From the NCBI GenBank assembly GCA_018389105.1, contig JACATO010001028.1:496001-560000 (forward strand): a DNA stretch of 64,000 nt. The letters are read 5' to 3'. The translations under genes were made by a program, and so were the position numbers. Origin of the DNA: Nautilus pompilius (Eukaryota; Mollusca; Cephalopoda; Nautilida; Nautilidae). A model generated the notes under the pieces. It searched no databases, was not told the DNA's origin, and saw only the letters and a program-made list of their open reading frames with translations. The stretch's first letter is position 1. Every line of letters starts with the position of its first letter. Below, in pieces: positions 2,379-37,190 of this stretch.

Positions 2379-5300
2379 GTAAAAAAAAGAGAGAGAACTT
2401 TGCTTTCATTATTATTGTGATTATTTTTTGTTTAAAATGTGAATGTCTTGTTTCAGTATATTATCAAAACAAATCAATTGTAAAAAGAAATCTGAATAAA
2501 ATTACATTATAAAAGCATGTGTAAATTTAGATTGGTATGAGAGTGATTGGTTGATGACTTTATTCCACTTATTCTATTCCATTAAAACGTTAGAATAACA
2601 GAACCAACTCAGCCATTCTTAACAGTGTAAAACGTCAGCTGAAAGAGAGCAATAAAGCTGAGATTTATATGCTCTGTGGCTGATTGGGATTTGAGTTCTT
2701 TATGACGAAAAACGTTTTGTTTTGCCTTTTTAAGGAATCTAGTTTAATTTTTAATAATTTTAATGACAGACAGCAAGATACTAAAAACATTGCTTTTTTG
2801 TAGATTTTATTTTGGAATGTTTATCTTTTTTATTTTTAATTTGGTGTTTGTAGTTCCTTTCAGTTTTTTGTTTTTTTTTATAGAAAACAACCAGAAGGTC
2901 TTGCTTACTCGTCTTTCTTTTTCTTTTTTCTCAAAAGTTTATCATTTAAAAATTAATTTCTCCAAATACACATTTTCTTTAATAGCAGTAAACTCTATCT
3001 GATATACTAAGATGTTAAGAAGCATGATATTTAATGGAACTCACACATTTAAGACCAAGAATACAATATCTGTGTAGCTGAAAACTTAGCATCACTGAGT
3101 TATCAGGAAATATACTGCTGGACTCACAGAAATGTCTTAATGCCATCTGAAGAATTATGGGTACATTCCAGGTTAGACAGAATGTTGCTTTTAGTGGTTA
3201 AGATTCCTTATTATTTAAAAAGATGTAGTCTAACACAGCTTAGCATTTAATAAATGCTATAGAGTAAGTTAAATTTGAAGTTTTTAAAGAAATAATAAAG
3301 CCAACTCATTGTACAGTAATACCTCGAACATTCACAGGGTTAGATTCCAGAACCCGTTGCGGATCAGGAGGAATCACGAATGTTTGGTACGAGTCACTAA
3401 AAATGCTAATAAATGCTTATTTCTAGAGTTTAAACCCTAAATATGACCCAAATCATGCTCCCAAAGCACTTTAATTTCATTTAAAGGTTAGCTTAATACA
3501 TTACCCTTAAAAAAATAAATAAATGGTTGACGTAAAAATAGAGTACAGTATCGCCTAATGGGTATTTGCCACACTAGCGCATTTACAGTACGGTATACTA
3601 ATGTTACCCCTATACTAATTCATTGGTAGCCGTTTTCTTTTGCACTCACAGTAAAGTAAAACCAAGTAACGAATGGGACTGTAAACTTAATGACTGATGT
3701 TTTCTTTGTCATTGTCAGGAAAGTAAACTAGGTAAACTTCATATGTCACAGAAGTCATATAACGAAGGTACAATTCAATAAAATAAAGAAAACATGTACA
3801 TAGAATATTGATTGAAGATGATGATGAATTAGCTGTGCAGTACGGTGAAAATAATGAAAATGACTGCACACTGTACTTGAGGAGTTACAGCTCCTCAGAG
3901 TCTCCCTATTTAGGTAGAGGAGACTCTTCTGCCGGGGCTTCTTTGGGTGGGGTTCGTGTGAGGGTTTGGGTTTCCGATCGAAGAAAGTTATTTTGCTCTG
4001 CTGCTGCTGTTTTTTCATAGTGGTGTAGAGGGTTCTCTATGTCTCCATGACTGAATTTAAGCCATTTATCGTTTTCAGAGCACGTTCAAAATAGGGATCC
4101 CACTCTTCTATGTAGGATTGCAACTGCTGTTGAGTCCTCATGATTATTCGAAGACGTTCAATTGAAAGACCCTTGTCGTCCTCTTGCTGTTCTTGAGCTG
4201 ATTCCTCTTCTTCTTCACTTGCTGACTTGGTCAGCTCAAGCAAGTCATCATCCATCAGGGGGTCAGAGTGGGCATCGATGAGTGTGTTGACTTATTCTTC
4301 GGTGCAATCATCAAATCCTTCACCCACCAAAAGCAATTTTGCCAGTCTCACAGCCTTGTTGACAGCCTCATTGTGAATCTCCTCTGGCAAGAAGCCCTTG
4401 TAGTCGTGGACTGCATCTGGCCACAGTTTTTTCCAGTATGCATTGAGAGTTTCACTTTTCATTTCTTTGAGGGCAGACTGAATTATTGTAAGGCACGATG
4501 CTATGGTGAATTTCTTCCAGTATTCTTTTAGGTGAAGTCCTCCAGGTGTTGCAGAGAGTTGCGCGTGTAGAGGGCGTTAAATGCACGGATCATGCCTTGG
4601 TCCATAGGTTGTATGGGGGAGGTGGTGTTGGAAGGGAGGAATTCGATCTGCACACCATCATACGACAGATCTAGGGGGTGCCCTCCGGCATTGTCCATGA
4701 ATAGCAACACCTTAAATTCAAAGCCTAGGTTGAGAAGGTATTTCTCCACTTCAGGGATGAAACACCGGTGGAACCAGTCGGATGCTATGACTTTGGTTAT
4801 CCAGGCCTTGGGGTTATGCATCCAGTAGACAGACAGGGCATTTTTATTCTTGTTCTTGAGGGTCCTGGGGTTTGCAGACTTATAAATCAGGCCTGGTTTG
4901 AGCAAGTGGCCAGCAGCATTCCCACACATAATGAGCGTGATTCTGTCCTTTTGTGCCTTAAATCCAGGAACTTTGGCCTCTTCTTTCATCAGGTATGTTC
5001 TTGATGGCATTTTCTTCCAGAATAATCCAGTCTCATCCATGTTGAAGACCTGTTCAGGCCTGTATCCTTTCTCCTGGATGATTTTTTTGAAGGTCTCCGG
5101 ATATCTTTCTGTGGCTTCTACGTCAACAGATGCAGTCTCTCCATGCAATCTCACACTCCTTAGGTTATAACGGTTTGAAAGTTTTTCAAACCACCCCCTG
5201 CTGGCCTGAAAACTTCCAGGGTGTGGTGGTGTTGATGTTCCTGGCTGCAGGTCTTGTGTATCCTCTTCAACAAGCTTCTTATAAAGATTTAAAGCCTTCT

Positions 5301-8300
5301 CCCAAATCATGTTGCCCTGCAAGGGGATTTCCTTTTTACGGCAGTCTTCGATCCTTAATGAAAGGGCAGATTCCATCTTAACAATGTACGGGTCTCTTTT
5401 GGTCGAAACCTGCTTTGCTTCATGCAGGTAGCTCTTGGAGACCAATTTTCTAATTTTGGCCTCTTTACTCTTTATAGAGCGTACAGTGCTTTCATTCATG
5501 CCATGTTGGCGTCCTACGCTTGTAGCAGTCTCACCAGATTTCAACAAATCTAAAACTTTTACTTTTTCCTCTAGTGTCATCACCTTCTTCTGATGCTTAG
5601 GAACACTGCTTGGAGCCTTAGAATGCACGGAATGTTTAGGCATCTTGAGGGTTTTTAGAATTAAGTAAAAACCGAGGAAAAAAGCACTGAAAACACTTAT
5701 CACACTTGTACGGAATACAAGCGTGTTGAACTGAGATGCGGGAAGATGAACCGCGGCTTCACTCATACACTAGTGACAGTACATACACAAAGTATCCAAG
5801 CTACAAGCCAATCAGCAACAAGGAAAGTTGGTACCCCACTGTGTGATTGGCTACTTCCAACCCTTCCAGCCAATAGCGTGTCGTCATGGAGCCTACATCA
5901 TCGCGCGAACCCGATACAGTGTGCATTTGCTATGAACACTAGCAGAAAATTTATAATTTTTGTGTTGAATTTACATAAACATTTATTTACTATTACAAAA
6001 TAGTAAATTAACTACAGTATTTTCTAATAATTATGTAACCATTAGCGTTCCAAAGGGAATAAACTTTGCGAATGGGTATCGCATCTTGTAAAGGTACAGT
6101 ACAGTACTTTACATAAAAAGGAACGTTTCCATAGGAAAGCGAAGCTTTTTCGAAGGAATTTCTTAACTGATTTCTTGTTTGCCTTTAACTTTCCCCCAAA
6201 AAACAGTAGAATTTTCATTAACAAAATTTTTCTTACCGATTTTACACTTAAAAGCATGAAAACTTATAAATTACTTCAAAAAATTAAACATAAGCACTTC
6301 TGCAGGGTTTTTCGAGGATTTTGCAAATTTCACAGACCTGTGAAAAATTCGCGGATCTAAATTAGTTAGGTTCCAATGAAAATTTCGCAAATACACGAGG
6401 TATGACTGTATATCACATTACACAGCAGGAGATAGATAGGTTACCGTCTCTTCAGGTAACAGCAGTGTGATAATTTGTCTGATGTTTGAACTAAAGTAAT
6501 TCAAGTATGGATCAGAGAGAAGTGTAGTATTAATCAGGTTTCAATAATAATTGCTGTTTAACATTGTTTAATATCTATAATTTTTTTAAGGATATTTTTG
6601 AGGATGACTGTACTTTGCAGGTGGATTGTATACCACCAGAAATCCCAGTTTATCAGTGTGATTCAAAATGTAAGTATTGCATCTACAGTAATGTTTTGGT
6701 GGTGTTTATAAAAGAAAGATGAAATATTTCTATTTCAAATTGTGTTGCTGCTGTTTTTACATTTATTTTATGAATCTAAAATTATCTTTAAGAGCCTTTA
6801 TCACTGCCTCATCCTTTAATAGTATAATGAACAAGCCGGCTCATCATAGTACCTACCTAAATCTGCTCACAAGCATGCAAATTGGCTTTTAGTTGGTTAT
6901 CTTTTTTTGTATATACCTCCAAACCGCCGCCGCTGCCGCCTCTAATTTATTTTACATCATCAAAAAAAAAAAAAAGTCTAAATAACATTTTGAAGATTCC
7001 ATCTAATGGGTTTGTGTTTGACTGTTTAAATAGCATTCTTCAGATGTCTGGTAATGTTGTATTATCTGATTTCTTTGTGGACTACCTAAAGCTAGTTTTA
7101 GTAACAGTTGCTCTATTTAATGTGTGACTCAAGATAGGATCTCACACTTTATTTAGATTCTAATTGAATAACTTGAATATTAAAGAAAAAAGTTATCTAT
7201 CATTGAATACCTTTTATGCTTTAATATAGTGATATTTTAATTATTTATAAATTTTTATTTGATTCGCATACTGGTGGATTTGTTTTACAATTGTGAATAC
7301 AAGATTTCACTTGTGGCATCATTCATATTGTTATGAATATAAATAATAGTGTCTGAATGTTGGTATAGAGAAACTTTAATGAGATGGTGAATTATGGTTA
7401 AACTTTCATCATGCATTGGTGAAGAAATGAAATAAACAGCCTTCTAAGTACTATTTAATTACATTGCAGGTATTTTACTCCTGTTTAACAACAGAAACAA
7501 CGAGCAGCATTCTCAAATTTTATTTACAAAATGTTTAGTAATTATAAGTAAAAGTCTAATTTATAACCAAGTACTGGAAACCCAATGGTATCAGATGTAA
7601 CATTGCAGTTTTTTTAGGAGTGTTTCTCCTCATTTATCTGATCTACTAGAAACAAGTATTCAGAACATTTTTACTATTGAAAATTCAGAAAAATGGGTGA
7701 AGAAGAAAGATAAATTTTGCATCACATGAGTAAATAAAAAATAAGTTCTTATGTAGAACTCGTGTATACACACTCTGCTCATGACTATGGCTCCCACCTT
7801 TCTCAATCAGTGAAAACTGATGCCATCTCTTGTTTAATTTTTGAAGTGATGACTTCTTCAAGGTCAAGAAACAGAAGAATATGTTTCCCCTTCCCTGAAA
7901 AATATATAAATAAATACTGCAGAAAGGAACACTTACTGTAAAGGTGGGTTTTTTGTTTGGGGGACAAGTTTGCTAGACTGTAGCTTCAGATTCTTTGTAA
8001 AATGTTAACCAGTAGATTATACATTAACTTCAGCTGTTTTAGAAAACTTGGAACCAGAGGATGCAAGTAGTTTACAGGAGGAAGTTGGAGTTGAAAATGA
8101 AAACAGTGATGTGATGTTTGCCAAAGAAAAAGGTTCTAATCAGGATGAAGATGAAAGTGATTGGGATTCCACAGTTTGTTCTGGTCAGCCAACCCCAAGA
8201 GCAAATGTACTTAGTTCTACGCAAAAGGTTGGTATTTTTCCTTTAAAACTGATTTTGTTGAATTGTTTTCAAAGAAATCAAATTACTTAAATCGGCCATA

Positions 8301-11300
8301 TAATTATAAAAAAAACCTGACAGTCTGGTGGATTATGTTGTTATTTATAAAATCATAATTTCATAGAACTGTAGTAATCTGTGTGGAGTTATAATTGGTG
8401 AAAAAATACAAGATAGTTCTACAAAGCGCTCACAGGTAGTTAGATATTTTAGGCAATGTACGTTTTGCTATGTAAACTGACAGAAGTACATGAAAGAATA
8501 GATGAGACTGACTGTTACAGAGTTTTGTTTTCGCTGTTTACTTTATTAGAGGCTGAAGGATATATTGGTTCAGAAGATGGATATGCTGAAATTCAGGTTA
8601 TCCGGGATGGATCATCAGTAAATCGTTTAAATGATTGGATATGTTATTTTACTTTTGGTTTTACTGCTTTTGCTGACCATGGAATATTTTTTTTTGTCTG
8701 TAAAGATTTTGATGTTTATTTTAATATTATTTTATTTACTATTCAGCTTCTACCTATCAAATATTTCAGTTATATTAAAAATCTTTGAGACTTATAGGTT
8801 TAGGTAGTAATTGATGTTGTGCAGACTTCTGAAGGCGACTCTCTTCATTGTGTACATAATTTCAGGCATATTATTGGCGAACTGTGACTGATAAATTCTT
8901 TAATGTAGTAGTACTTATTATATGAAAAAAATAGCTGTTCTGTTATTCCTCTTCCTGTACATTATGTAAATGTAATAATTGTATAACTTGAATAATTCCT
9001 CTTACTACATTATTAGTGTCAATACTATTTTCATTTTATCAGATTTAGGCTCATTTTGATAAAAAATGTACAACCATTTATTTATGATAATCTCTCGCTC
9101 CATATATCTAATATGTAATTGTTTCTTTTGTTGTTAATTTTCTTTGTCAGGAAAAAGTCCCTAAGAAAGCTGGAATTTTGAATATTGAATCTGGGCAACC
9201 ACTTCAAGAGATTGATGGTGATTTGTTTACTTTCTAATTTATGAGTTTATTTTCATTATGTTATGTAAATGTTATAGCATGATTGTGTTGCATAATGCAT
9301 TACACAAAATACCAAATGAATGTCAGTCTATGAAATGGAATGAACAACTACATGGATAAACATTTCTCATAACTGGAACATAGCCTTGCATAGAACAAAA
9401 TTGCTTCTTGCCTTAATTTGCCATTTTTTCCCTATAATATAATATATTTTTAATTGTTGTTGTTTTTACTTTAGAAAAATTTTTTCTGCATATTTTTTTG
9501 ACTTGGTTAATCCTGCATTTGGGAGTAATGTTACTATGTATGGGATCTGTAATATCATTATTTTATCATTTATTGGATTATCAGTTTGTTTCTGTGTGTT
9601 CAGATACTTACTAGTTAGTCTTGGAGAGTAACTAATTGCTATTGCTAAACTTTTTATTATTATTATTATTTTGTTGGAAAAAATGTTAAGGACAAAAATT
9701 ACTGTATATTAACTCAGATGTCAGATGAGAGCCTTTCTTGATGTATGAAACTTTTGATGGTAAAAACACAACACCCTAGGCTAACTTCCACGGTGAACAG
9801 CAAACTGTTTATGCATGTGTAGCAACTCTTGGTTGCTATTATTTAGTCATGACTCAGAATAGTAATTATGACAAGTGTATGTCATCACGTTGCTAATGAT
9901 GTAATTGATGTCAGTATTTAGTGTCGTAACCTTTATCTTTGTGCAGCTCCATGACTGATTGGTAATATAATTTTGTATCTGAGCTCAGTTGTCACCACAT
10001 AAGAGTTTTGTAGTTTGTTGAAGCTAGAACACAATGGAACACTGCTTAGTTCTCCTTTAATGATTCTCGAAATCATATTAAAGAAGTCTAACCCAGTTTC
10101 TTTGCTTTTTAAATTATGGTTAAACTTTACTGTATCAATAAGGAAGAAAAAGCAAGACCACTAAATTTTTTTGAATTGGTAAAATGTTTTAGTTTTGATA
10201 ACGATGGGATCTTGTGGTTCATTTAAAATTTAATATTTCATTAATTATACTTTTTGTTTTTTTTTACTAACAAGACATTTAAATCAAATGCACATTTGGC
10301 TGGCTGTTCAGATGATCAGCATAAACACTTTTACCCATCGTTTTTGAAATTCATGAAAGAGAAGTAAGATCATCTACATTTATTCAAAAATAGTAAAGTT
10401 TGGCATATAGTATATTTTTTGGCCAATATTGCCATATCTTGATAGTTTAATGTTACTGAAATTAACAATTTAAAAAAAAATGTAAGGTTTACTACATTTT
10501 GATTCAATTAATTTAAATCGATCAAATATTTTAGAAATGAGGGAAAAAGCAAAAATGTGTAATTACAAACAGAGCGACAAGTCTCCAGCTCTAACATAAT
10601 GATCCTAATTAGATAATACAGTACCCTGAGATCAGAAATATAATTTTCTTCACTCTACAATTGCCTTGACCAATTTATAATATTTGTTTTTCAGTTGGTG
10701 AAAAGCCAAAATCACTTAGTATAAACTTGATTGCTGATGATAGGTCATTTATTCCTGGCAACAAGAGTTACAACTCAAATGTTGATGACAGTGTTAATAG
10801 AGAGAGATTGTCACCTCAAACGGAGTCATTAGGTTCAATTGATCTTCCACTACAGGTAAACTTTACATAAAGCTTTCATTGTTTAGGTTCCAAGAAAAAT
10901 TTGAATGAATTATTGACGGGTAAACTGAAGTTGTTAAATTCTTTAGTCTTAGATATGTATCTTTCACTATCATAGGCAAACCATTTAGGCATTAACAAAT
11001 ATTCTGTTGTCATTGTTTCTTTAAGCATATACAACCCAAGCCTAAATATTAAAATAACTTTATCCTTTACATATTTGTTCTTTAGCTAATAACTGCACCA
11101 TGAGAACACTAATACTACTATAAATGTACTAGAAGGCTGCTTGTTTCGAGCATCTAAAAATTACCTCATGTCTAGTCACAAATCTTTGATTAGATATTAA
11201 CAATCTTAAAACCAAGAACAAACAAATTGGCATTGAAGTCCACATTTTTTTTAAATTCAGGAAAAGTCAGATATGAAAAATTTGAAAGCACTTTTTCAGA

Positions 11301-14300
11301 GAAGGAAAAGTAAAGCAAAGGTGAGAGAAAGTAAGAGTGGTTTGTGTATGAGAGAGAGAGAGAGAGGAAATGATGCTTAAATGAGGAGAGAATGTTGAGA
11401 AAAAGTAGCAATAAAAGTAAGGATTGTAATATAAATCGGTAACACACAACTCTAAAATGTTATTCACTATCCTAACTCTGTATGTAAAGTATGAAAAGAC
11501 ATGAGGTTTGTATTTATCATAATCAATGTAAAACTGTTTTTATTGATAAATACAAAATTTTAGAATTTTGAAAACAGATTGATATCCAAGTTATATATTG
11601 AAGCCTATATTCTAGCTAACTTTAAAATCACCAGTCATAATTTATTATTATTATTCATTTAATCAATCAATCAGTCTTTGCAGGATAACAAAGAAGAAGC
11701 TGAAGAGAAGATATCAAATGAAAACGGGGTGAGGAATATTTAAAAAAAATGTTTTTCCTTAAAAAAAGAATCTTTATTTTTTTTAAAAAAAATAAAATCA
11801 TTAAGAACAAGCTTCAGCCAGTTCTAACTATCTATCTACCTACTCAGTCTTTAACCGCTTATTTATTATTTTTCATCGTTAAATTTTCATATTGGTTAAT
11901 AGTAGTGTTTTGTTGGTCAGAGGTTCGTGTCCAAATACTCTGGTTACTGTCAGTCACAAAGTATCATCAATCGTTTATTTTATAGAAATAAAAGCGAATT
12001 GTGAAATAGAATGGAAATAAAACCAGAAACAGCCACAGTTTGACATTATTTAGGAGCTCTAGAAATCTATCGTCCAGGCCAGCTATATTTTTCTCTAAAC
12101 TTTGTGATAGGACAATTCATTTAAAGACATCTATTCTATCTTTTGTTTCTGGAATGAAATTTAACAAACTTATCAAAGAGTGAATAAATGTATTACATTT
12201 GGTTATTGATCAATTTAGATAAATCAGTTTTTTCAACTTTAAAAGTCAATTAATTTCCACCCTTAGTTATTAGGCTCCCGGTTTTAAGCAAACACCCGTT
12301 TTTCACCCACAGTCGTTACTTCCGTTCCTTACTGAGCACCCATACTGGTGTCGCACTGTTGAGAGAGATTCACTACTGATTTTTAAAAACAAGAAAACGT
12401 TTTAACTATTATGTGTGTGGGGAAAGAGAGATGCTAATTAATACTAGTTGGTGTACCCAGTGCTGACGGGGAAACGGCTTTAGGCCGACGCACGGCACCT
12501 TAGCACCTCACCCAGGTTCCAAAGGACCTGCAGCCAAAATTTGGATCTTCTGACTGCTACAGTTCAGCTGTGAAGAGTAACAAACAAACACTTGGAAATG
12601 TGTATTAGATTTTTCTTTTTTTTATTTCTGCAGATTGAAACCTCATCTATACATCAAAATTCAGCAGAAAGTAGAAAAATGCAGCAGACCAATGCAAAAT
12701 CTGTTTTAACAGTTCAAAGTGAGGTAAGAAAACAATACTGTATTTGTCTCAAGGATCCTCATTTTGAATTATGATGTTTAACTACAGAGGGTGAGTGTTT
12801 ACAAGGTCTGTTCTTAGATTTTTATTATATTTTCAATAGAAAAGTGGTTATAAATGTTTAAAAAAAAGGGAGGGAAGCATTTATTATTCTTGAACTTTTT
12901 AGTGTTCCTGAGAAAACAGTCAAATACTATACATTAATCTGTTATGGTAATGCAAGAATTATCATTAATGAAATAACTGTTTAGATTTTTGTATTTATGT
13001 TGTTTACAGGGTGTTGCAGAAGTTGAACATGGATTTTTCCCAACAGACTTCAAAGAGGTACAGTGGAAAACCTGTTTTGTAATCTAGTTTTTAAGTTCAT
13101 GTAGCAGTTTTTTTTTTACATCATTTTCAGAATTTATTTGTTTCCAGCCTAATGAAATGTAACCCTAAGTATGAACTACATTGAAACATTGGATTAAACA
13201 AATGATAAAGTGTCTGTACTAAAACAAACACATACTACTACAGAGTATTGCTTGGGAGGGGTAAAAATTTCCGTGTAACTTACATGAGATTTTTAAAAAT
13301 TGACTATTATATGCAAGCTCAGGAATTTAGCTTTACCCAAAGTAAAAAAAATTTCAGACTATTTTATATGTATTGTAGATATTGTCAGTCTTTAGAATGC
13401 AGAAATGCTAATTCCCTATATTTTAGGGAAAACTGCATTTTAGATGAATGTGACCGATTAGGCTGTTTGCAATTTTTTTCATGACTTGTTTTGATGAAGT
13501 ATTGGAGACTGGCAGGTTGTGCTAGAGATTTCATGATGATGCTTACCCGGATAAAGGTGCCAGGAAGCAAAGGAGTTAAGGTGTTGCTTCGCTATGTCAA
13601 ATTCACACTTCTTACCTGATATGAGACGTCTTGATTTGACACATGAGATAGACAACAGATATCCTGATAGGAGAAGCCGAACACTGCATCAGCCACTCTT
13701 TGGAGCAACACAAATTCAGGTTTACACGTAAACTACATGCAATACAGATGCAGGAAACAATATCTGATTAGTAATAGGAGGAAACCCATACAGAATTGGC
13801 AAGTATAGAAAAGTGAGAAAAAGTGCACCATGGGCTAGACACATGTTATTGTGCCTTCTGTAAGGATCTTCCAGTATGTTTTTGAAATTTATTTTAAAAG
13901 TTAAAAAAAAATTACATTCCTCTATCATTGTTTTCTTTATTCTTTTTTTTTTTACAGGATATTATGACAGAAATTGAAGCTAAAATGCCTGATAATGAAT
14001 TTTTGCTGGTAAATGTTAAAGAGGTAAAAAAAAATTTAAGCAGATCTGATTTAGAGTAATATGTTTTTGAGGAAGGAATAATACTATATCTTGATAGCAG
14101 CTGTATGTAGTATACACGGTAGAAGAGACGTACGTACAAGGTACTTAATTCCAGTGACGTGAGATACAACAAAACAGCAGTCTGCCTATTTAACTCATAA
14201 AACATTGCATTAGCATGGAAAACAGCTTTTTTCATACCAAGCCACACCTGCCATTAATTCATTGTATATAGGATCCACTGGAGCAGTGTATTCAAAAGTT

Positions 14301-17300
14301 ACATGTTTATCCACTCTGCTGTGCAAACTTAGCTTCAGATTATAAAGATGACTGATATTACGCAGGAAGAGAAAAACTGTAGAAGCTATTGCTTACATTT
14401 TTTTTCAGGAGTATAAGTATAACATCTTAAATAACTGTTACTTAATAATGCATTATTGTGAGAAATATTTAAAGAATAAAGATGGTAGCCTACTTTTGTT
14501 CTTTTGACAACTGGATATTAATAATTTAAAATGAAAAATAAAATTGAAATAGGAATTTTTAACCTTATGTAAGTGAATAATCTACTTAAGAAAATTAAAT
14601 GCTAGAAAATAATTACTTTATATAGGATGATGCAACAGAAAATCAAGCTATATTGCTTAAAGAATTTAAGTTAAGAGATTTTATGCAGGTAAGGAGAATT
14701 TTTCTAAAACTGTTATTTATATTTTACTTGTAAACCCTGGTAATGAAAATCTGATAGCATTTTGTTATTTTTTATGGTGTGATAGCATAGAAACTGAAGC
14801 TAAGTTGGGTGATGAGAAATTCCCTTTAACAAATGACGAAAAGGTAAAGATGATAATGCTTTTTATTGATGAACTACTACTAAATTTTTAAATTTTAGTT
14901 TATTGCATCATCTAACATATGGTATTTTCCTTGTTTGGTAAATTAAAATGTATTGATATTTGAAGCACATTACTGAAACATCTTTTGAATTCCATAAACA
15001 CACTGCCATTTTTAATGGTTGACTAGCTTAGTGGTTAGGTTTGTTCAGATGACAATGACATTAGCTAGTTTTAATTTTAATGGTATAATATAATTTAGAA
15101 ATTTTTAAAATAAAAGGATCTTTTCCATGTACATGCTTCCGAAAATGAGTTGAAAGATATATTTTAATTATTTTACACCAAAATGTATGGTATGGTAAAT
15201 CACTTGATTATGTAAGTAGCTCTTCTTAAAAAACCATTTTATATCATTTACTTTTTAGAATGATTCAGCTAAATCTGAAGTCAAAGTATGTGATAAAAAA
15301 TTTATTTTAACATACAAAAAGGTAAGAAAAATTTGTTTTGAAGTATGCATACATATAAATTGCTTTATTCCTCCTGTACAACACCTAAAAGATTCTAGAA
15401 ATTAGGGAATTAGTTCAGACATACCTGTTGGTTGCCAAGTTGCTTTCATGTGTTTTCTTTACTAGCTTCTTTGTCTTATGAGTGTATTCTTTACCACAAT
15501 CAATGGTAAATTGCCCCATTGGTGGGATTTTCTTAATGTCAAAGTATTTTGTGAATGTACTGATGTTTAATTCCTTAGTCATACCAAGCATTCAGAAGTT
15601 CCTTTAATATATGGAATCACAACCTTTTGTTCTGTTATTTGCCTGTCTCTACTGGTTCTCTGACAATTGTGCAGAATAACCATGATTCACAAAAATGGAT
15701 ATCAGATGTTTTTTTGGCTTTAGTTCTGCATCACGCTATTCCTTTTTTTGACTCCCCGGTGGTGAGTAGAATTAAAGTGCAGGGTAGTGTTCAGCATGTC
15801 TTCCTCCTCCTTTCACTGGTAATCATTTTGCCCTCTTTCCTGGTAATCACAGCATCAGGAAAGGAAATGGTTATAGCTTTATATCTGCTGTGAACATACT
15901 TTCTGAAAATTAAAGTCATTGTACAAAAAAATTGTTCTAGGACAATGGTAAGATTGTCAAAATATAGGTTTAGTTTTGCTAACAAGATGGTGGAAAATGT
16001 CCACTCTGCCCCTTTAGTTTCTGTAAGTAACATATCACCATAAAGATTCTACTTCATAGTACATAATGTTACCTAATTTATAACTTTAAGATACAATTAT
16101 CAGTTTATGTTGTTAATAACTTTGATAGTAAAATTGGATCTGAAAAATATAATACACAGTGACATATTCCAAGCTGTGGTTGACATAACAATGTGAAGTA
16201 GTGGATTATTATCCATATTGTATTTCAGCAATTGGCATTTTAGAGATCCTGTGGATTTTCTGTGCAGCAGGCCATATGGATATCATTCTATGCATGTTGA
16301 TAACAGTTTTAATATTCTTTATTTGTTCAACACTGATTACAGAAAGAGAAGTGTCAGCTCATTCTGTTAACTTCAGAAAACAAGCAAATTTTAAAAAAAT
16401 ACTACTGATAGATAATACAAGTAAAATGTCTTGAAAGTAAGAAGGTTCCTTTGATGCTGTACTGCATCTCATCTGATGTACCTCATTTTCTCACTCAGTA
16501 TGACAACACTGAAAAACAGTTACCTTAAAGCAACACCTTATATAAATTCTCTAGCAGTGTAGACTTGAGGTCTCTCTTAACAAATGTTTAATATTTTCTT
16601 TATAAATGTTAATTTGCTAATTAATTTGATTTAACCTGGTTTCATTTTCCAAACTTAAAAGAACTTTAAACTTTTTTTGCATTGTCCTTGAATTTTATTT
16701 AAGTAGATTTTTTACAAATAACTAAACTAAAATCTTCGAGAGAAGTTGGCTTTTTGTTGCTTAATTAAAGTCCAAGCTTTTATTCAGAGTAAAGGAAATG
16801 GAAAAGCTCACATAACTGAAAAGTCATGAGTCTGCATTTTAACCCAGACAGTCAGCATATTCTGAGAAGTTTTGTTGAAATTCAGGAAGAAACTTACAGA
16901 AGGAAACATTTTATGCCTATTTTTGCATAAACGGCATCACTGATTTTTTAAAAATGTTTCTTCATTAAAAAAAAAATGAATATGGAGAATTTACCAAAAA
17001 AATAGACTTTGATGTCTTATCTTTTTAAGTATACTTTTAGGGTTTTGCTTTTTATGTCATCTTCTTTAGGAAGAAGCTGATCTTGCCACAAGTAAGATGG
17101 ATGAACGACAAAAGAAATATTTATACGACACAGAGAATATTTTGTGTAATAAAGAAATGGAAGCAGCAGTATCATATGATGAAATGAAAACTGAAAATAA
17201 GGTAAAATTTTCTCCATCTATTTAGTGCTGCTTTTGGACACAAGGAATTCTGGGATGGCAGGGTCAGGGTTTTGACTGCTCATTTTTAGTCGTTTAGCGG

Positions 17301-20300
17301 TTCTGGATTAGAATGTTAGCCAAGTAATTTGTGGGCAATATTCTGTCTGCATCATTTTCGCTATTACTATGAAGATTAGTAGCTTATGACTGCTACTATT
17401 TTATAGAGCATTGAAGTTCATTTTCATTTTGCTGTTCATTTGTTTAATGATTTTTAAATTATCCTATTTTTTAGTTACGTTATAATATTTAGATTGTTGG
17501 CTACTTTTCCACAAATGTGGCCAGTAAATGCTATTATCACAAGTTACTACTAACTATTTGTCTTTTGTTGTTGTTTTTTTTCTTTCCGCAAAGGCTGATG
17601 TTCTAAATGATAAGACTGTGCAGTTAAGCACGAGTGTTGTTTGGAAGGTTCAGGGTGAAAAGTACGAGGTGTCACCACCACCTCTTCCCCGACCTCTCTT
17701 ACCACCACCGGAGCAGTGTGATGTTGCTTGTTCCGTAGCACCCTTCCAAATCGGTATCGCTGCTGATGATGAATCCCCTTTCTTCGAGAATGTTTGCAGA
17801 CCCAGCCAGTAAGTACAGTACAGTACAGAATAATTTTCTACAATAAATATGAATGGGCATAATGAAAATTGTTAAACACTGAATTTAAAAATGAATGGAA
17901 ATAACATTTCCAGCCATGGTAAACAAAACGTGAAGGTAGTTGTCTCACACCAGTGATCTGGAAGTCTCAGAGTCAAAGCTAGATGATTAATCCTAAATTA
18001 TTTTAACCCCAAAACAAGAAGTACTCAAAATGAAAAAAAAAAAAAAAAAACTTTAAAAGTCTGCATTAGAAATATAACTGACTAGTATAAACAATTTGAA
18101 TACATATTTTCTGATTTTATTTGTATTGGCAACCTAGTTTTGCTAGTGTGATTTTTTTTTAAAGTTTTAATAAATTATCCAAGAGTCAACTAATGATGAA
18201 ATAAATGAAGCTTAAGGTTTTGTCTTACATTTTGTAAAAGTTTTCTGTAATTCTGTAAAATCTCTGTTATCTGCCATCCATGGGACTTGAGAGTCGGTTA
18301 GTCAAGAGTTATACTTACCGAGTCAATTGGTCTTTACTTTGTTTAAAGCTGGAAGCATTCACTTCACCAGCCCCCATTAAGGTTGAAGTGGGCAAACCGC
18401 TAGAGTAGCCAGTTTTGTCAGCATTATATATTGATCTGGTGACAAATCATAGTCTACAACTAACCTAGAGAAGAACTTGAAGTACTATTTGGCAGACTTC
18501 TGCTCTCTCCTGATTTATCAGGGCATCTTATTCCATGATGCAGCTTAAAACATGAGACCCACCCATCAGAAAAGGTGCACAGTTCAGTGAGTTCCATTTG
18601 CCTGTAAAAGCCTTTCACCTTTTCATTGAGCACAGGCCCAGAGATTGGAGCACCCTCAGAATGTTTGTATAGAACAGTATCAAGCTGTTCGAGCTTAGGT
18701 TTACAAAGAGTACAGTGCATTTCCACAGATTTCTCAGTTTTCGAACTTGTATAAAACTTTAACTTATCTTTTTGCTCCTTGATGTTGTAGATGGTAGCGG
18801 AGTCACTCATTAAACCACTCCTATTTTCACCTTTCACAATTCTCTTGCATATGTCTATCTTCTGATTTATTGTTAGAACCACTGTCTTCCTAGCTTCCCT
18901 TTTATTTGTTGATTTATTTGATGCCCTTTTAAATAATGGGTGCGCTGATAATCCACAATAAATACGGAACAACTTTTACTACTATAAACAGACAATGGCG
19001 GTCACAGAGAAGGATGACAACCTGCAGTACCACCAATTACACCCAGTAAGTATTCAGGCCACAGAGCTTTTGGCCTGTGCAGGATAGCATCGATCTGGAT
19101 GATGGTTATCAAAATATTGATCTGTATTGTGAAATTTTTTGAAATGCTGATTAACAAGATGCTGGATAGACAAGCTTTTAATGTATGTTACTTTTGTTTT
19201 GTATTGGAAAAGTATAAATCTTATTCATGTCTACTATCTTGATTTTAGTGAGAGGGTCCCAATTTTTACTTTAAAATCTCCAGCCCATCAACAGTTTCCA
19301 AAAAAGAAATAGTTAAGATAGATCTTGGTAAATTTTTCTTTTACAGTTGCCAGCTTTGTGTGGGTACTTGTAATGTCAATGCTAAGAGGTGACACTGTAA
19401 TCAGGGGAAACAACTCTAAAATAAATAAATGAATGAAATAAAGCTATGCTAATGTTAAATAACTTTTAATTATTAATTGTTAATTACTGACATGCACTTT
19501 TAAATTTAACGTGAGAAATTAAGGAAAAGTAATTTTAATTTTAAAAAATGTAAAAACATATTTTTTTAAAAAATGGCAGCCATTCAAGTTTTACTCTCTT
19601 TCTGATTTTTGTATATATTTTTTTTGTTTGCTGCCACATATCCCCTGCCCATAAAATCAAAAACTTTTCATATATCAAATTTTATTAACTGATTCTAAAT
19701 GTCACCTAAAATTAGATGATCTAATTTCACTGCTGCTAACTTAATACTTTTGTTTTTGCAGCCAGAAACTCATTTTAAAATAACTGATCTATAACCAAAT
19801 AGAACTGTTATAGTTTTAAGTCTCTAAATTCTGTCTGAAATTTACAGATTTTTGTTAAATGTAGGATTTATTGTATGCTTATTTTAATGTCAAAACTTGG
19901 GATATAAAGAATATAGACTTTCTTTTCTTTTTCTTTCTCTAAGAAGTTGGTTTAGCTGTTTCTTGGACATTTTATCGGTTAGAAGTGTTAGATAAGTAGT
20001 CTGGTGTAATGAAAAAATGTAATCTATAAAATGATAAGTAAAAGTTGTTTTTTAATTGTGGGATAGTGAAAGACCAAAATAGTACAACAAAATACAAAAT
20101 GCATTAGTATGCTAATAAAACAACTATACACATATACGGGTGTTTTTTTTTTTAAATAAGTTTGGGTACAATGGTTTCCCAAAGCTTTTCAGGGTAATTT
20201 GCAGCTGTGACAGTACCCTCATAAAGTAGGCTCCAATGATACCAGCCGAACAAAACTATGTCCACACAGTAATGCCGGGAACATTTAACTCCACTGCAAT

Positions 20301-29300: not shown

Positions 29301-32300
29301 TTATAGCCCCAACCAAACTCCTAGTTTACAAAGCAGACATTATTTCCACCTGCTGTATGGTTGATTTTTGGATACCATAAGAAGATATCTAAAAGCCCTA
29401 GAATGTTTTCACTTGTGCCTTCTCCATGCTATTTTCTGCATTTATTGGGAGGACTGTAAGCAAACAAACAGTATCTTTTTAGAAGCCAGATGTACCAGTA
29501 TTGGGACATTAGTTATCAGGGCCCAACTGTGCTGGATTGGCAACATGTCACATGCAGGACTCTGGGTTCCCAAACCAGCTGTTCTTTTCCCAGCCGAGCC
29601 TTGGGCAATGAAGTGATGGAGACCAGAGAAAGATGTTTAAGGCCAACTTGCAAAAATGAAGCATTAACTGCAGTACATGAAGGGTTGTTTGCAGACTGGG
29701 AGTTAGAATTTTTCAACAAAACCTAATTCAAAATGAGATAGAATTAGCAACAGATGGGATCCACCAACCCTAGATACCTGCCATTGTGAAGTCTTGTGGC
29801 TGCAGCTGCAGTTAGAGGATTGGGCTTTTAAGTCATCTGAAGACTCAACAACAGAGAAGAAATGCAGCTATCTATCTCACCTGCATTTTTCTTGCTGGAA
29901 TAACCATTGTAGTTGAAATGAGGTATCACAATAACATGCTAAGAGTTTTGTGTTTTTTTTGTTGTGTTGGTTTCTTTTTCAAACTTTGCAGCTGTGTTAA
30001 ATTTAATGAGTAAAATACTATAAAATACAAATATACTAAATTGAAATACAGCATTTTCCATTTCTTTTTAAATAAATTTAGATTCTTGTAGCTGTATGCA
30101 GACTTTAATTCTGTCATTTTTTAATAGAAAAGGCATTGTAGTTATTATATGCATGTAATTATATGCATGTAATATCAAATACAATTTTAGTCTAAAACTT
30201 TAAGATTCACATTGTTCTAATCTTAAAGCTAAGGGAAATTTTACTTCTGAAAAGCTGCAAAGTAAAATAAGATTGTTTTATCTCTAATTACTTGCACAAC
30301 TAACATGTTGAAAAAAATTTATAAATGAAATGCTGAATCTTTGGAAAATTATCCCGATGCCAAGACATTGTTGTCTGGTTGCAGCTTTTAGAAAGAAAGA
30401 AAAATTCTAGCGTTTTGTATTCATTGGGAAAGTTTTCTCTGCTTTACAGACATTCACTAATTGAAGAGACTGCACTTAAGAGAGACAGTGAAACGATACA
30501 GGAACAGTTAAGAAAACAGCTGGAGAGACTTGAGCAACATTATAGAAGGTAAACAAATGTACCTAATCACCAGATCTTGTTGAAGATGTAGTGCTCTGGC
30601 TTAATTACCTGAGAGATACATTATATGAGAATGGTTTAAATTATTACCTTACTAGTCATCATATGAAGAAGTTACATTAGACAAACTTCTTTAAATAGGA
30701 CAAATCACTGTTTACATCTGAAACAGTCAGCAGTGGTTGTTGTTCACCATAACTAAACAAAGTTAGTTTATTTTTTTGTTTCCGTTATTTTCCATCACAT
30801 TAGTCGCTAATTCATTTCTTTATGAATTCTTTCTTTTTTATATTAATGCATTTAATAACAATTAATGTTCTAGAATTGATAATGCAGTGCTACCTGTTTA
30901 TGTCGACCAATGCATCAGCTGGCATCCCTCCTTTGTTGACCCCACATAAAAGTCCCGATCCATTCTTCTTTGCCTCTGCAATTCCATCTCACTATCTCAA
31001 CGTTGACATAGAAGATAATCTGGTGTCAAAATGTAATAAAACAACTTAATAAATAAAACTGCTGTTCGTTTTTTTTTTACTCCTGAGTTCACATGTATTG
31101 GCATTTTTGCCAAAACAGAATTCATAAGAGATAAAACACTGAAAGTATAGAGCTAGCTCAGAAGATTGTGGATGAGTTAGATATCACTAGGGGACACTAA
31201 TCTTATTAAGAATGATGTGCATGCTGCAGTTTAAGTGGTCCTCAAATTAGTCTTTTGAAAGGGATTGGAGACTATTGAAATTTTGTCCTGTGTTGATTAG
31301 GTTGGAAAGTATGTGCTTCGGTTATTGCTGAGGTGAACCTGGGTGTACATATTCATCTTACATGTCTAAAGATGAAAAACACTGCTAACCATGGCGAATA
31401 TAATGTGTGCTCTTATAACCAGTTGGTCTGCCTCCATCTTGGATCAGTGAGTCGACATGAACGGGTATACTGTATATGGCGGTCTTTTCTAGAGGAAAAC
31501 AAAAAATCTTTCTTATGTTATAAATAGTTTATTCTACTTGCTGTTTGTAAGATTTTCTTGCATGGTAGTACTTACTTACTTGATAATACACATTTTAATT
31601 TTTTCTAGTGTCATTTATTCAGGTTAATCTGTAACCAATGATATTTTATTTTTCTTTTTAAAATTTTTTTATTACTTTATTACATTTTCATTTACTATGA
31701 TGAAGCTAAATACAATTTCAACAAAAGCTCATAAAAAAACAAAAAAAACTTGTAATTGGAATAGAACAAATAAATGACATTTCTCAGAAGGAATTCTAAC
31801 AAAGCATGTAAACCAACATGAATTGGGGGTACTCGGTAGGGGATGTGCCCCACCCCTGATGGCAGTACACGACTCACTTCTTGGAGTGATCTTGGAATGA
31901 TGTAATACATGTTTCTAGACCATCCCAAATGTTCTCAGTAGGATTTAGCTTGAAAGAACATTCTGGCCATATTATGTGGGTAATGTTTTGGTCTTGAAGG
32001 TATTGGTCATTTACACATGCCCTCTGTGGATGAGTTTTATCACTGATTTAAATGGAGATTATCTCCAGTTGCATTTCTGCATGGTCTGACATAGGGATCT
32101 AGAATTGTGTCCCTATAGTTCATTGCAATCTGGGAACCTCCTTGAAACATGCAAGTATGTATGTATGCATGCCCAGAAAATCACATCTCCATGACCTTAG
32201 TGATTCTTTTCTATGTCATTTTTAAAATGTTTAAAAAAGCTAAATGTGATGCTACAAGTTCTGTCATATTATTTGAGAGTAACTTTTTCTTATTATAGAA

Positions 32301-35300
32301 ATTTACTGATATATAACATTTAAATTCTAAAGCTTTCTGTACTGCATTATTTAGACTTTGCATACATAATAAATTCATGCCAAGAGTGGTTTAAAATTCC
32401 ATTTAAAGATATCAAATATAAATTTGTAAGCAATTTTTCAATCAAAACAACAACAAAAAGGGAATTACTTCTCTCCTCTCATCATTTAATGTTTGTAGTT
32501 TGAAATATTTTCCTTTTAGAGTTTTTGTTTGCAGAATGCTTGATTAAAAGTAATAATTTCATCTTTTATGCATATATCCTTTTTTAGTTCAATTTTTGTT
32601 AAAATTTGATATTTAATATATATTTCACAAGTAAATAATATTATTGCATTGGGTAAAAATTTTTGATTTAAAACACCCACATAAATTAATTATTTTTCAA
32701 CTATTTATAACTGTAGCTTGATGCACTTTGAAAAGATGGAGCTTCTATTAGATGAAAAGTCATCTCTAATCACCGACAGAGAATTATCATTGTATAAAGA
32801 TGTTTTTTGTTTATTAAAGATTAATTAAAAATCTTTTTTTCATTCAGTGTTTTAGGTGATTTTTATCTGCTAATCTAACCTGATTTTGCTGCCTCTGATA
32901 TAGTTTTGGTTCTCAACTGCAAAATGTGGCCAAACCACTATATTTTAAACCCATAAGGTTTTAATTTCTTATTCATATGCCTTAAGTTGTGGTATATTTA
33001 GTGTAAAATTAATATACTGGATGCAGTTTTTATCATGACTGACCTTTTTATTTAAGAAGAAGAAAAATCTGGGATTCAGAATTGCCATTACAGGTAAAAT
33101 TTGTCTTCTAGTTAGTTTTAAAGAAGATTAATTTTATTGTATCACACTAATTACTTTTATTAGATTAATATCAGTTTTTTAAGGATAAATTAATGAAAGC
33201 AAATGTTAAGATGTTGTGAACTATGTTTTAAAACCATCTTTCTTTACAGTGAAAAGGAATCAAAACAACAATTGGAACTTGCTTTTTATCAGCTCCAAAT
33301 GGATAAAGAAATGCAAGAAAACAGGGCAGAAAGAGTGAGTTTTTAAATTTGTTTCTTTATAGTAAACTGTGTGCGTGTGTGTGTTCAGTATCTTAAAAGT
33401 ACTAACTCAGTTACAGATACTGCAGTGAGTTCTGTAGAAAAACATCAGCATTACATTTTTAATATGAAAAGTAAATTTATTTGCAGTCATTAGTTTTAGC
33501 TTTTGTACTGAGTACAGCAGAAACAAAAATTTGACTGTTGCCATCACTTGCAATTGATTTTTTTCAGTTTTCAATTGGCAGTAAAATCCTTTTATACTGA
33601 AAACCTGTTGAATAAAACTTTCTAGCAGTGTTGCTATAGCTACATACTACTTAAAGTGTTTCACAGTTTGAATGTGATAAATCTCGTTGGTCTATAATTC
33701 TAGTTTTTCTGGAAGTTTTATGCCCTAAGTGTCAACTTGAGTTGAAAAAGGCTAACTAAAGCTTTAAAATAGAATTAATTTAAATTTCCAAAAATTATTT
33801 TAATAAAAATGTGCAAAATAAGCAGTATTATTAGTATAAAAAAGAATATCAGCCATGAATTTTATTACTTATTCTGTTGCATCCATTTTGTATGTAATTA
33901 ATTCATTAAAAATATGATAAAGATTAAACAATAAATTAAGATAAAATTCTATCTGCAGAATTTACAATGATTACATTAAGCTTGTTCAAATGAAACTCAG
34001 CTGGAAATAGAATCATCTTAATAATACCTGGCTGAGCTTCATTTAAACAATCCTAGTATGCAGTAAGTATAATTTAACACAAATAAAGCAGAAATAAAAG
34101 TTTTTTTAATAATATTTATATATTAATTGAGTTAAAATATAAAGTAGAACTCTTAAAGGTTTTTTTTTTTTACATAAACTATTTCCTTTGCTTCAGTAAA
34201 TCATGTTTATAAATGGTTTCTTTCTTATTGTATTCAATCCTACCATTTTGTCTGTATCTTTAGAAGACTGGGATTTATAGTGAACATTTAGTTTAGTTTT
34301 AGCCTAATTTATTGTAGCTAGAGAATGAAACCAAAGGACTGAGAGAGCAGTTTGCTGAGCTGGAAAGTTATGTTCAGAGTAAGCAGTTTAATCAGCCGCA
34401 GGACACAGAAGCTTTTTTTGAGGTTGAGACAGTAAGTTTTATTTCTGCTTGTACTATTGTTGTTGTTGTTTGTTTTTTTTAAATCATTCTCTCCAGAGCC
34501 TTGTTTCCTACATAAATGGTACATACATTATTTTGACTCATCCCTTTTGTGATAATTATGTGGAAAACAAAACAGATAGTGTAACTATCTAGAGTGTCTT
34601 CTTGACTCGTACTTTAAAATGTTATGATCCAAAGTTATCATATGCCCTGTTATGAAGCTACTGAGTACTGTAACAAAAAAGGAAAATTTATTAAAAATAT
34701 CTACTTTTAGAAAACCTGTACAATAATCATATACACACAGTACTGGAAATAATTTAGAAACAGGAAAAATTGGGTATAAAATGCAAAACATGCGACAGAA
34801 TTGCATCTAGTGTAAAAAAGGAAGAAATGCTCCATAGATGTAGTACATAAACTGCCACATCTGCAGGACTATAAAAGTATAGGTTGTAATATCATTGTAG
34901 AGTGGTGAATGTAGATAGTATGGTTCGTGGGAAGGAAATGAAGGCTATTCTGGGGCAGATTGCAGCTTGGATTCATGTTTAAAAGCTAAGGAGAGGCATC
35001 TAAACAGAAAGACTCAAATGGGCTGCAGAAATGAAACATGACTAAACTCAGAAGAAGGTGCTCTTTACAGATGACTCCAAGTTTGAACTGTTTGGCGATA
35101 ATAAATGGCAGTTTGTTCAAAGGTGGATTAAGGAAGGGTATAACAGTTTGCAACAGTTACACATCAGAATGGGAGGTGTATTGACATAGTTGTGGGGTGC
35201 ATATCAACAAGGGTATGAAGACTAGAATAAAATTGAAGGTATACTGACTGCTGACAGGTCAGGCAGGTGGGCACGTATCTCCCAACATCATAATAGGTGT

Positions 35301-37190
35301 ATGCTTCAGGTCATTGTGGTAAAAATTACCTAAAATGAAAAAGGATGATTGTAACACACTCAAGACCATCTTGATCTGTGCATATTTTTAATGTGAGTGT
35401 CATTGAGGCTATACGGGGTTATGACTACTGAGGAAGTCAGCCTTGGATTAATTGTGGAAAGTGCTTATTTGGAAAAACGTTTTAGTCACACATTAATAAC
35501 ATGTGTGAGCATGAAAAAATAAGGTGTCACACTCTACATAAAGAAAAAGGTTCTCATACTAAACACTAATGCACTGTACAACATATTCATTTTGTTTTTG
35601 TATATTTTTTGTAATAATGCATTGTGTTTGTATTCTCTGTATCTCAAAGTTGCAATTATTATTTTTGCATATCCTGTGTGTTTACATAAATATTTCCCAT
35701 ACTGTATACAGTGTGTGTGTGTGTACAGGTGCATCTAAAAAAATAGAATAGCGTGGAAGAGTTCATTTTTTTTGGTAATTTAATTCAAACAGGAAAACTT
35801 TCATATATTCTAGATTCATTACACATAAAGTGAGATATTTCAAGCCTTTTTTGTTTTAATTTTGATGATTACGGCTTACAGCTCATGAAAATCAAAAATC
35901 CGCTATCTCAAAATATTAGAATATTTCATAAGATCAATAAAAAAAAAAAAGGATTTATAATATAGAAATGTCGAACTTCTGAAAAGTATGTTCATTTATG
36001 CACATAATACTTGGTCGGGACTCCTTTTGCACAAATCACTGCATGAATGCAGCGTGGCATGGAGGCGATCAGCCTGTGGCACTGCTGAGATGTTATGGAA
36101 GCCCAGTTGCTTTGATAGCGGCCTTCAGCTCATCTGTATTGTTGGGTCTGGTGTCTCTCATCTTCCTCTTGACAATACTCCATAGATTCTCTTTGGGGTT
36201 CAGGTCAGGCGAGTTGGCTGGCTAGGGTCAGCAAACCAGTTACTAGTAGTTTTGGCACTGTGGGCAGGTGCCAAGTCCTGCTGGGAAAGGAAATCAGCAT
36301 CTCCATAAAGCATGTCAGCAGACAGAAGCATGAAGTGCTCTAAAATCTCCTGGTAGATGGCTACCTTGACTTTGGACTTGACAAAACACACTGGACCAAC
36401 ACCAGCAGATGACATGGCACCCCAAATCATCACTGACTGTGGAAACTTCACACTGGACTTCAAACAACTCAGATTCTGTGCCTCTCCACTCTTCCTCCAG
36501 ACTTTGGACCACTGAGCAATGGTCCAGTTCTTTTTCTCCTTAGCCAAGGTAAGACGCTTCTGACGTTGTCTCTGGTTCAGGAGTGGCTTGACACCAGGAA
36601 TGCAACACTTGTAGCCCATTTCCTGGACACGTCTGTGCCTGGTGGCTCTTGATGCACTGACTCCAGCCTCAGTCTACTCCTTGTGAAGCTCCCCCAAGTT
36701 CTTGAATCGGCTTTGCTTGACAATCCTCTCAAGGCTGCGATCATCCCTCTTGCTTGTGCCCTTTTCCTACCACACTTTTCCCTTCCAGTCAACTTTCCAT
36801 GAATATGCTTTGATACAGCACTCTGCGAATAGCCAGCCCTCCTTGTGGAGGGTGTCAATGAGTGTCTTCTGGACAACTGTCAAATCAGCAGTCTTCCCCA
36901 TGATTGTGGTTGTGTGTACTGAACCAGACTGAGAGATTCACGGTATTTATACTGCATAAATAGAGAGATTTACTCAAACTCCATATGGAATATTCTAATA
37001 TTTTGAGATAAGTTTTTTCTATTTTTTTGAGCTGTAGGCCATAATTATTAAAATTAAAATTAAAAAATGCTTGAAACATTTTAGTTTAATGAGTCGAGAA
37101 TATATACAATTTTCATTTTTTGAAATAACTGACAAAAAATATTGAACTCTTCCACGATATTCTAATTTTTTGAGATGCACCTGTATACAT

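Follow-up and report, generated by a model that had tools for sequence, protein, structure and literature searches.

In a 64,000-nucleotide stretch of the genome of the cephalopod Nautilus pompilius (GenBank assembly GCA_018389105.1, contig JACATO010001028.1, positions 496,001 to 560,000 of the forward strand), referred to below as the window, an array of short exons was analysed that all start and end in phase 0 (phase 0-0). On balance, we consider it probable that this array codes for the linker part of a plus-strand gene resembling ANKRD26, in which an in-frame exon of 63-66 base pairs (bp) was duplicated in tandem and its copies have since undergone birth and death. The homology of four units, the phases of the exons and the lack of the acceptor AG in one copy are direct observations; the splicing of the exons, the assignment of the gene to ANKRD26 and the role of the linker as a flexible connection from ankyrin repeats to coiled coil are inferred.

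Homology of the repeat units

The array was first noticed in a preliminary description made from the letters of the window, which listed seven exons of 45, 90, 48, 66, 63, 63 and 132 bp together with a dead 63-bp unit. All seven intervals are indeed open, of phase 0-0, preceded by AG and followed by GT. A further candidate with these properties (60 bp, 11261-11320) lies ahead of them and was absent from that list, giving eight candidate live exons (Table 1). The window is AT-rich, with a GC fraction of 0.28-0.35 in 24 of 32 steps of two kilobases (kb), and apparently holds one long gene on the plus strand. Since both neighbouring exons join the array in phase 0, the one on exit and the other on entry, any subset of the array could be skipped in frame. 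Likewise, because all exons of 11261-17201 start and end in phase 0, copies could be gained or lost without breaking the frame.

Similarity among the eight live candidates and the dead unit was measured in all 36 pairs. It is clear at the protein level in three of them, namely the dead unit (unit 3) with unit 1 and with unit 4, each reached by 0 of 2000 protein shuffles, and unit 1 with unit 4 (6/2000). The pair of units 1 and 2 is conspicuous at the DNA level alone, where 1 of 500 codon shuffles did as well. Two further low DNA values, for the 45- and 132-bp exons (9/500) and for the 90-bp exon with unit 4 (13/500), fail correction for 36 tests; the latter is the best relation of the 90-bp exon to any core unit and is not significant on protein either (0.0555). 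Against shuffled sequence the units are thus divided: the core pairs (13958-15321) score better, and most of the 36 pairs do not. On this ground and on the profile matches given below, descent of the whole set of seven exons from a single unit was rejected. A relation of the 132-bp exon to the unit was rejected as well (protein value 0.1155 or worse against the core units).

Leave-one-out profiles were then built from the core units and run over the window with nhmmer. With 20-bp flanks, the left-out unit was always the top match outside the training set, with E values of 2.1e-7, 2.3e-5, 1.4e-8 and 2.7e-4 for units 1 to 4. Without flanks, units 1 (4.8e-4) and 3 (2e-4) were recovered convincingly, unit 2 still ranked first at 0.18, and unit 4 at 0.95 hardly differed from a chance match (0.97). 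Part of the signal of the flanked profiles therefore stems from common splice-site context. Six control profiles, each made from three other exons, gave no match outside their training sets below E 0.6.

Outside the core, the 48-bp exon came closest. It reached E 0.009 with the flanked profile of all four units and was the second match outside the training set in three of the four flanked leave-one-out runs (0.0047-0.015); in the fourth it came third (0.58), behind the 90-bp exon (0.38). Without flanks it was not among the best four matches listed in any leave-one-out run, and its status as a copy of the unit is doubtful. The 90-bp exon scored E 4.1 in another run, and the 45-, 60- and 132-bp exons were not among the matches listed for the unit profiles. 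Further dead copies within introns were sought with DNA profiles and by six-frame protein search of the window and were rejected; besides the 48-bp exon, the best other DNA match had an E value of 0.22 and the best protein match 1.5.

The preliminary description had stated that at least three exons share the motif E.K..D..F.L. Three copies do exist in the six frames of the window (13976, 14796 and 15277), all inside the array, but two lie in live exons and the third in the dead unit. The motif was not met in 40 windows simulated by a first-order Markov model. As it was drawn from these very units, its count shows rarity only.

A stricter test shuffled the codons of each unit and realigned every pair, 1000 times. 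None of these shuffles reached the protein score summed over all pairs of the four units (136.5). Identity at third codon positions was 0.59 against a shuffle mean of 0.40, and was likewise reached by 0 of 1000. Protein alignment does not favour third positions, so this excess supports common descent of the DNA. At codon positions 1 and 2, identities of 0.49 and 0.63 were equalled by 374 and 197 of the 1000 realigned shuffles, showing no excess. An earlier version of the test, with hand-set alignments and shuffles that were not realigned, had looked stronger and is superseded by these figures.

These results bear on whether short, AT-rich segments rich in glutamate and lysine might resemble one another by chance. 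In keeping with such a view, most pairs are no better than shuffled, units 2 and 4 are weak in profiles without flanks, and the motif was chosen post hoc. The two pairs of the dead unit with units 1 and 4 (0/2000) and the summed score and third positions in the realigned codon shuffles (0/1000) make it unlikely for the core units. We regard chance similarity as very improbable overall, and it is largely excluded for 13958-15321. The four units are adjacent homologous exons in one gene, as in tandem exon duplication. The duplication proposed for the array as a whole thus holds for these four, by pair shuffles, profiles and codon shuffles, and is unproven for the rest.

Among the live units, identical bases number 41/63, 32/63 and 28/60, and between the dead unit and its three sisters 40/63, 34/60 and 35/60. 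Homology of the neighbouring introns, upstream and downstream of the four units, was found in none of 12 comparisons (lowest value 109 of 1000 resamples) and was rejected, though the local alignment of the dead unit with unit 4 overran the exon by about 40 bp. The duplications look old, which the adjoining introns without detectable homology would fit.

The dead unit itself is as had been described, with an open frame, a good donor (GTAAAG, score 6.9) and no acceptor AG. Its 3' splice site reads ...TTTATGGTGT/GAT, and the two bases preceding the unit are GT instead of AG. Of the overlapping 63-mers in neighbouring introns, 1099 of 4807 are open as well. Reading of the unit through another AG was tried with six alternatives in 14689-14800 and rejected. 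Four of these give lengths not divisible by 3 with stops inside. The other two (exon starts 14694 and 14697) would keep an open frame, yet they fall within the donor of unit 2 or immediately after it. The dead unit stands as close to its sisters as these do to each other, which suggests that its acceptor was lost well after the duplications.

Exon status, phase and rival readings

Exon status was judged against a minus-strand control, consisting of 133 candidates of phase 0-0, 42-135 bp in length and with both splice-site scores above 0, found in about 56 kb with transposons masked. On a combined splice and coding score, five of the eight array exons beat all 133. The model behind this score is a simple, heuristic one of splice sites and composition, which recovers short exons from 10695 to 17808. 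Its splice and composition weights were set from general knowledge, and the composition rich in glutamate and lysine was picked after the gene had been seen; coding weights tuned in this way favour the gene's own exons. The automatic path of 62 exons missed 14626-14688 and took in 12516-12569 and 15675-15761 within the array region. It was filtered by hand to 30 exons: 33 were dropped by eye, the latter two included, 14626-14688 was added and four boundaries were altered.

Several observations weigh against the favoured reading of a duplicated linker exon. Minus-strand candidates match or exceed the 48-bp exon (5 of them), unit 2 (4) and unit 4 (13), and for these three the splice and coding score by itself is no evidence of exon status. 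Two live units, 2 and 4, thus combine weak acceptors with scores not above the control; for unit 2 the count even errs on the lenient side, as its acceptor would fail the cut-off of the control. Nothing at codon positions 1 and 2 indicates that the unit is constrained as protein. Symmetric phase is common in the hand-filtered model: it is found in 8 of 8 exons in the array and in 11 of 22 outside it, a tally that depends on the filtering and counts exon 2226-2378, which is 0-0 on the automatic path, as non-0-0 for want of an entry phase. Shared this widely, it does not set the array apart and, though permitting alternative splicing, is weak evidence for it. The ten exons listed within 38534-58079 of the same model are all of phase 0-0.

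One way to read the weak acceptors is decay. Units 2 and 4 would then be rarely used relics that are becoming like the dead unit. Their acceptor scores (-1.1 and 1.5) and the control candidates that reach their totals agree with this, as do the missing constraint at codon positions 1 and 2 and the divergence of the dead unit, which is no greater than that of its sisters from one another. Both units nevertheless retain a canonical AG and a frame free of stops, with donor scores of at least 10, and we hold it rather unlikely that they are decaying relics.

In another reading, the array is a spacer adjustable by splicing, whose symmetric short exons are included or skipped by cells, which would thereby adjust how long the linker from ankyrin head to coiled coil is. 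The eight candidates are all short and of phase 0-0, and those of 45 and 48 bp fall below 51 nucleotides, a length that one source gives as exceeded by 94% of mammalian coding exons (PMC4317164). Splice-site strength also varies widely, from -1.1 to 12.8 for acceptors and from 5.2 to 12.8 for donors, and tandem exon duplication is described as often tied to mutually exclusive splicing (PMC9013439). Weak splice sites fit decay equally well, however, and phase 0-0, shared by half of the exons outside, is no mark of the array. An adjustable spacer seems unlikely; some regulated inclusion of array exons, which their phase would permit, is possible.

Under the favoured reading of tandem duplication with birth and death of copies, one in-frame exon of 63-66 bp would have given rise to four units, possibly to five with 13010-13057. 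Each copy would have added about 21 residues to the linker with the frame intact, and the loss of a copy would have been equally harmless; one copy already lacks the AG of its 3' splice site. The number of copies would shift mainly through the birth and death of exons rather than through regulated splicing. As the unit bears no sign of constraint, the linker probably tolerates changes in both length and sequence.

Likeness to ANKRD26

By sequence comparison we take the gene to be ANKRD26-like, and probably ANKRD26 itself. When its coiled-coil exons (Table 1) were joined, leaving out 44486-44551, they matched the Pfam family PF14915 (CCDC144C) at 1.2e-6, collinearly over 212 residues and profile positions 5-223 of 534; positions beyond 223 were unmatched. 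Neither the reversed coiled-coil sequence nor the two block-shuffled versions submitted, out of three generated, matched this family. The C-terminal exons aligned to a provisional sequence for a fragment of human ANKRD26, with a score of 61 (1 of 2000 shuffles as high; 43 and 18/2000 for the second exon alone). A likewise provisional sequence for the coiled coil of ANKRD30A gave a score of 202, which none of 200 residue shuffles and six of 200 block shuffles equalled, with 151 for the reversed sequence.

This assignment has its own counterweights. The PF14915 match stays at 27.9 bits, below the curated Pfam cut-off of 35, and does not rise when exon 44486-44551 and the downstream exons are added (27.2 bits). 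One block-shuffled coiled coil matched Prefoldin_2 at 8e-4, and weak coiled-coil matches therefore need caution. With the provisional ANKRD30A coiled coil, BLASTP reached only E 0.068. No Pfam family matched the C-terminal exons; the C-terminal Pfam family of ANKRD26 is DUF3496. Pfam likewise found no ankyrin repeats in the exons modelled within the window, and the gene probably begins upstream, beyond the edge of the window. A solved relative of the coiled coil was looked for and not found, and Rfam gave no structured RNA in the window at gathering scores.

In human ANKRD26, ankyrin repeats are placed at residues 74-199 and helical regions at 743-1538 (PMC3364200). With this layout and the likeness of the gene to ANKRD26, a portion of the linker would be encoded by the array. 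The linker position named in the preliminary description is thereby supported indirectly, by the coiled-coil exons that follow and by the resemblance to a protein with an ankyrin head and a helical tail.

The gene is comparable to ANKRD26 and the genes derived from it, ANKRD30A (NY-BR-1) and POTE, in a long coiled coil with a collinear CCDC144C-like stretch (sub-threshold here), in a possible C-terminal similarity (to the provisional human sequence) and in a long run of exons ahead of the coiled coil. It differs in that ankyrin repeats are not seen among the exons modelled. The linker repeat of ANKRD30A, in a provisional sequence, has no demonstrable similarity to the unit, the best of five units being reached by 209 of 2000 shuffles. 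A second exon duplication was observed in the same gene, where exons 2226-2378 and 8043-8227 share K.S....DESDWD..V....PTPR (local alignment score 72, 0/2000 shuffles). The ESDWD stretch resembles a motif of the provisional ANKRD30A linker repeat, at BLASTP E values of 0.013 and 0.025 without composition correction.

The remaining features of the window are remains of DNA transposons, included in Table 1. In the intron ahead of the 90-bp exon, a patch richer in G+C was seen by eye at 12400-12560, possibly a small interspersed element; it has no Rfam match.

Table 1. Coordinates of the array, its neighbouring exons and other features of the window
Feature	Position	Strand	Remarks
Exon preceding array	10695-10855	+	leaves in phase 0; open split codon joins it to exon 9151-9217; boundary hand-set, automatic path started at 10744
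60-bp candidate exon, phase 0-0, 20 residues	11261-11320	+	acceptor 5.0, donor 11.1; 0/133 minus-strand candidates as high; unlike repeat unit
45-bp candidate exon, phase 0-0	11684-11728	+	outscores all 133 minus-strand candidates; similarity to core units not significant
90-bp candidate exon, phase 0-0	12634-12723	+	outscores all 133 minus-strand candidates
48-bp candidate exon, phase 0-0, possible diverged unit copy	13010-13057	+	total score reached by 5 minus-strand candidates
Repeat unit 1 (e66), 66-bp exon, phase 0-0, 22 residues	13958-14023	+	motif E.K..D..F.L; leave-one-out profile match
Repeat unit 2 (e63a), 63-bp exon, phase 0-0, 21 residues	14626-14688	+	without full motif; acceptor -1.1 (weak), donor 12.8 (strong); missed by automatic exon path
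Repeat unit 3, dead, 63 bp, 21 residues	14781-14843	+	frame open, donor kept, AG of 3' splice site missing
Repeat unit 4 (e63b), 63-bp exon, phase 0-0, 21 residues	15259-15321	+	motif E.K..D..F.L; acceptor 1.5, donor 10.2
132-bp candidate exon, phase 0-0	17070-17201	+	best-scoring of the eight array exons; outscores all 133 minus-strand candidates; not significantly related to core units
Next exon downstream of array	17594-17808	+	phase 0 on entry, 2 bases left over on exit
Coiled-coil exons	30450-30548, 33250-33334, 34318-34431, 38534-38617, 39116-39214, 40969-41103	+	first part resembles CCDC144C region
Coiled-coil exons, continued	43542-43613, 43985-44041, 44486-44551, 44984-45073, 46187-46306	+	same coiled-coil run, to 46306
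Two exons resembling ANKRD26 C-terminus	62996-63679	+	local alignment to provisional sequence for human ANKRD26 fragment
Pogo/Tigger-like DNA transposon remains	4528-5769, 18460-18975, 46918-48095	-	Pfam DDE_1, CENP-B_N, HTH_Tnp_Tc5 in varying combinations
Pogo/Tigger-like DNA transposon remnant	55393-55962	+	HTH_Tnp_Tc5 only, 0.0056, below its cut-off
Tc1-like transposase fragment	36200-36673	-	HTH_Tnp_Tc3_2 1.2e-6, 29.2 bits against cut-off of 31.5

Tandem exon duplication and the ANKRD26 family

Tandem exon duplication is an already described class (PMC9013439), and the array resembles its members in that homologous exons are adjacent in one gene and neighbouring introns show no detectable homology. 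It differs in divergence. The method of that survey found no homology below 57% identity, and three of the six core pairs fall below this value, so that arrays this diverged may be under-counted. The ANKRD26 family, for its part, is known for remodelling driven by duplication. POTE and ANKRD30A are reported to derive from ANKRD26 (PMC3364200, PMC7073761), an intragenic duplication of exons 6 to 9 is described in the POTE lineage (PMC7073761), and transcripts of NY-BR-1 are given as having 36 to 42 exons (PMC5116164). Among the open-access papers listed for our searches we found no description of repeated linker exons in ANKRD26, ANKRD30A or ANKRD36, which says little, most subscription papers lying outside that scope.

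ANKRD26 is described at the distal appendages of centrioles, where it recruits PIDD1 (PMC11984956), and its worm and human forms are reported to help recruit FBF1 (PMC7198521). It is conceivable, if quite improbable, that the array represents lineage-specific, still-changing micro-modules of the linker, which would let splicing tune the reach from ankyrin head to coiled coil and hence the geometry of the distal appendages and the recruitment of PIDD1. Should the array prove real and transcribed, it would present in-frame birth and death of exons in a gene that is centriolar in humans, with one copy caught after the loss of its splice site. Depending on the counts of units in orthologues, such an array would also suggest that this family was ready to gain exons before the primate expansions of ANKRD30A and POTE.

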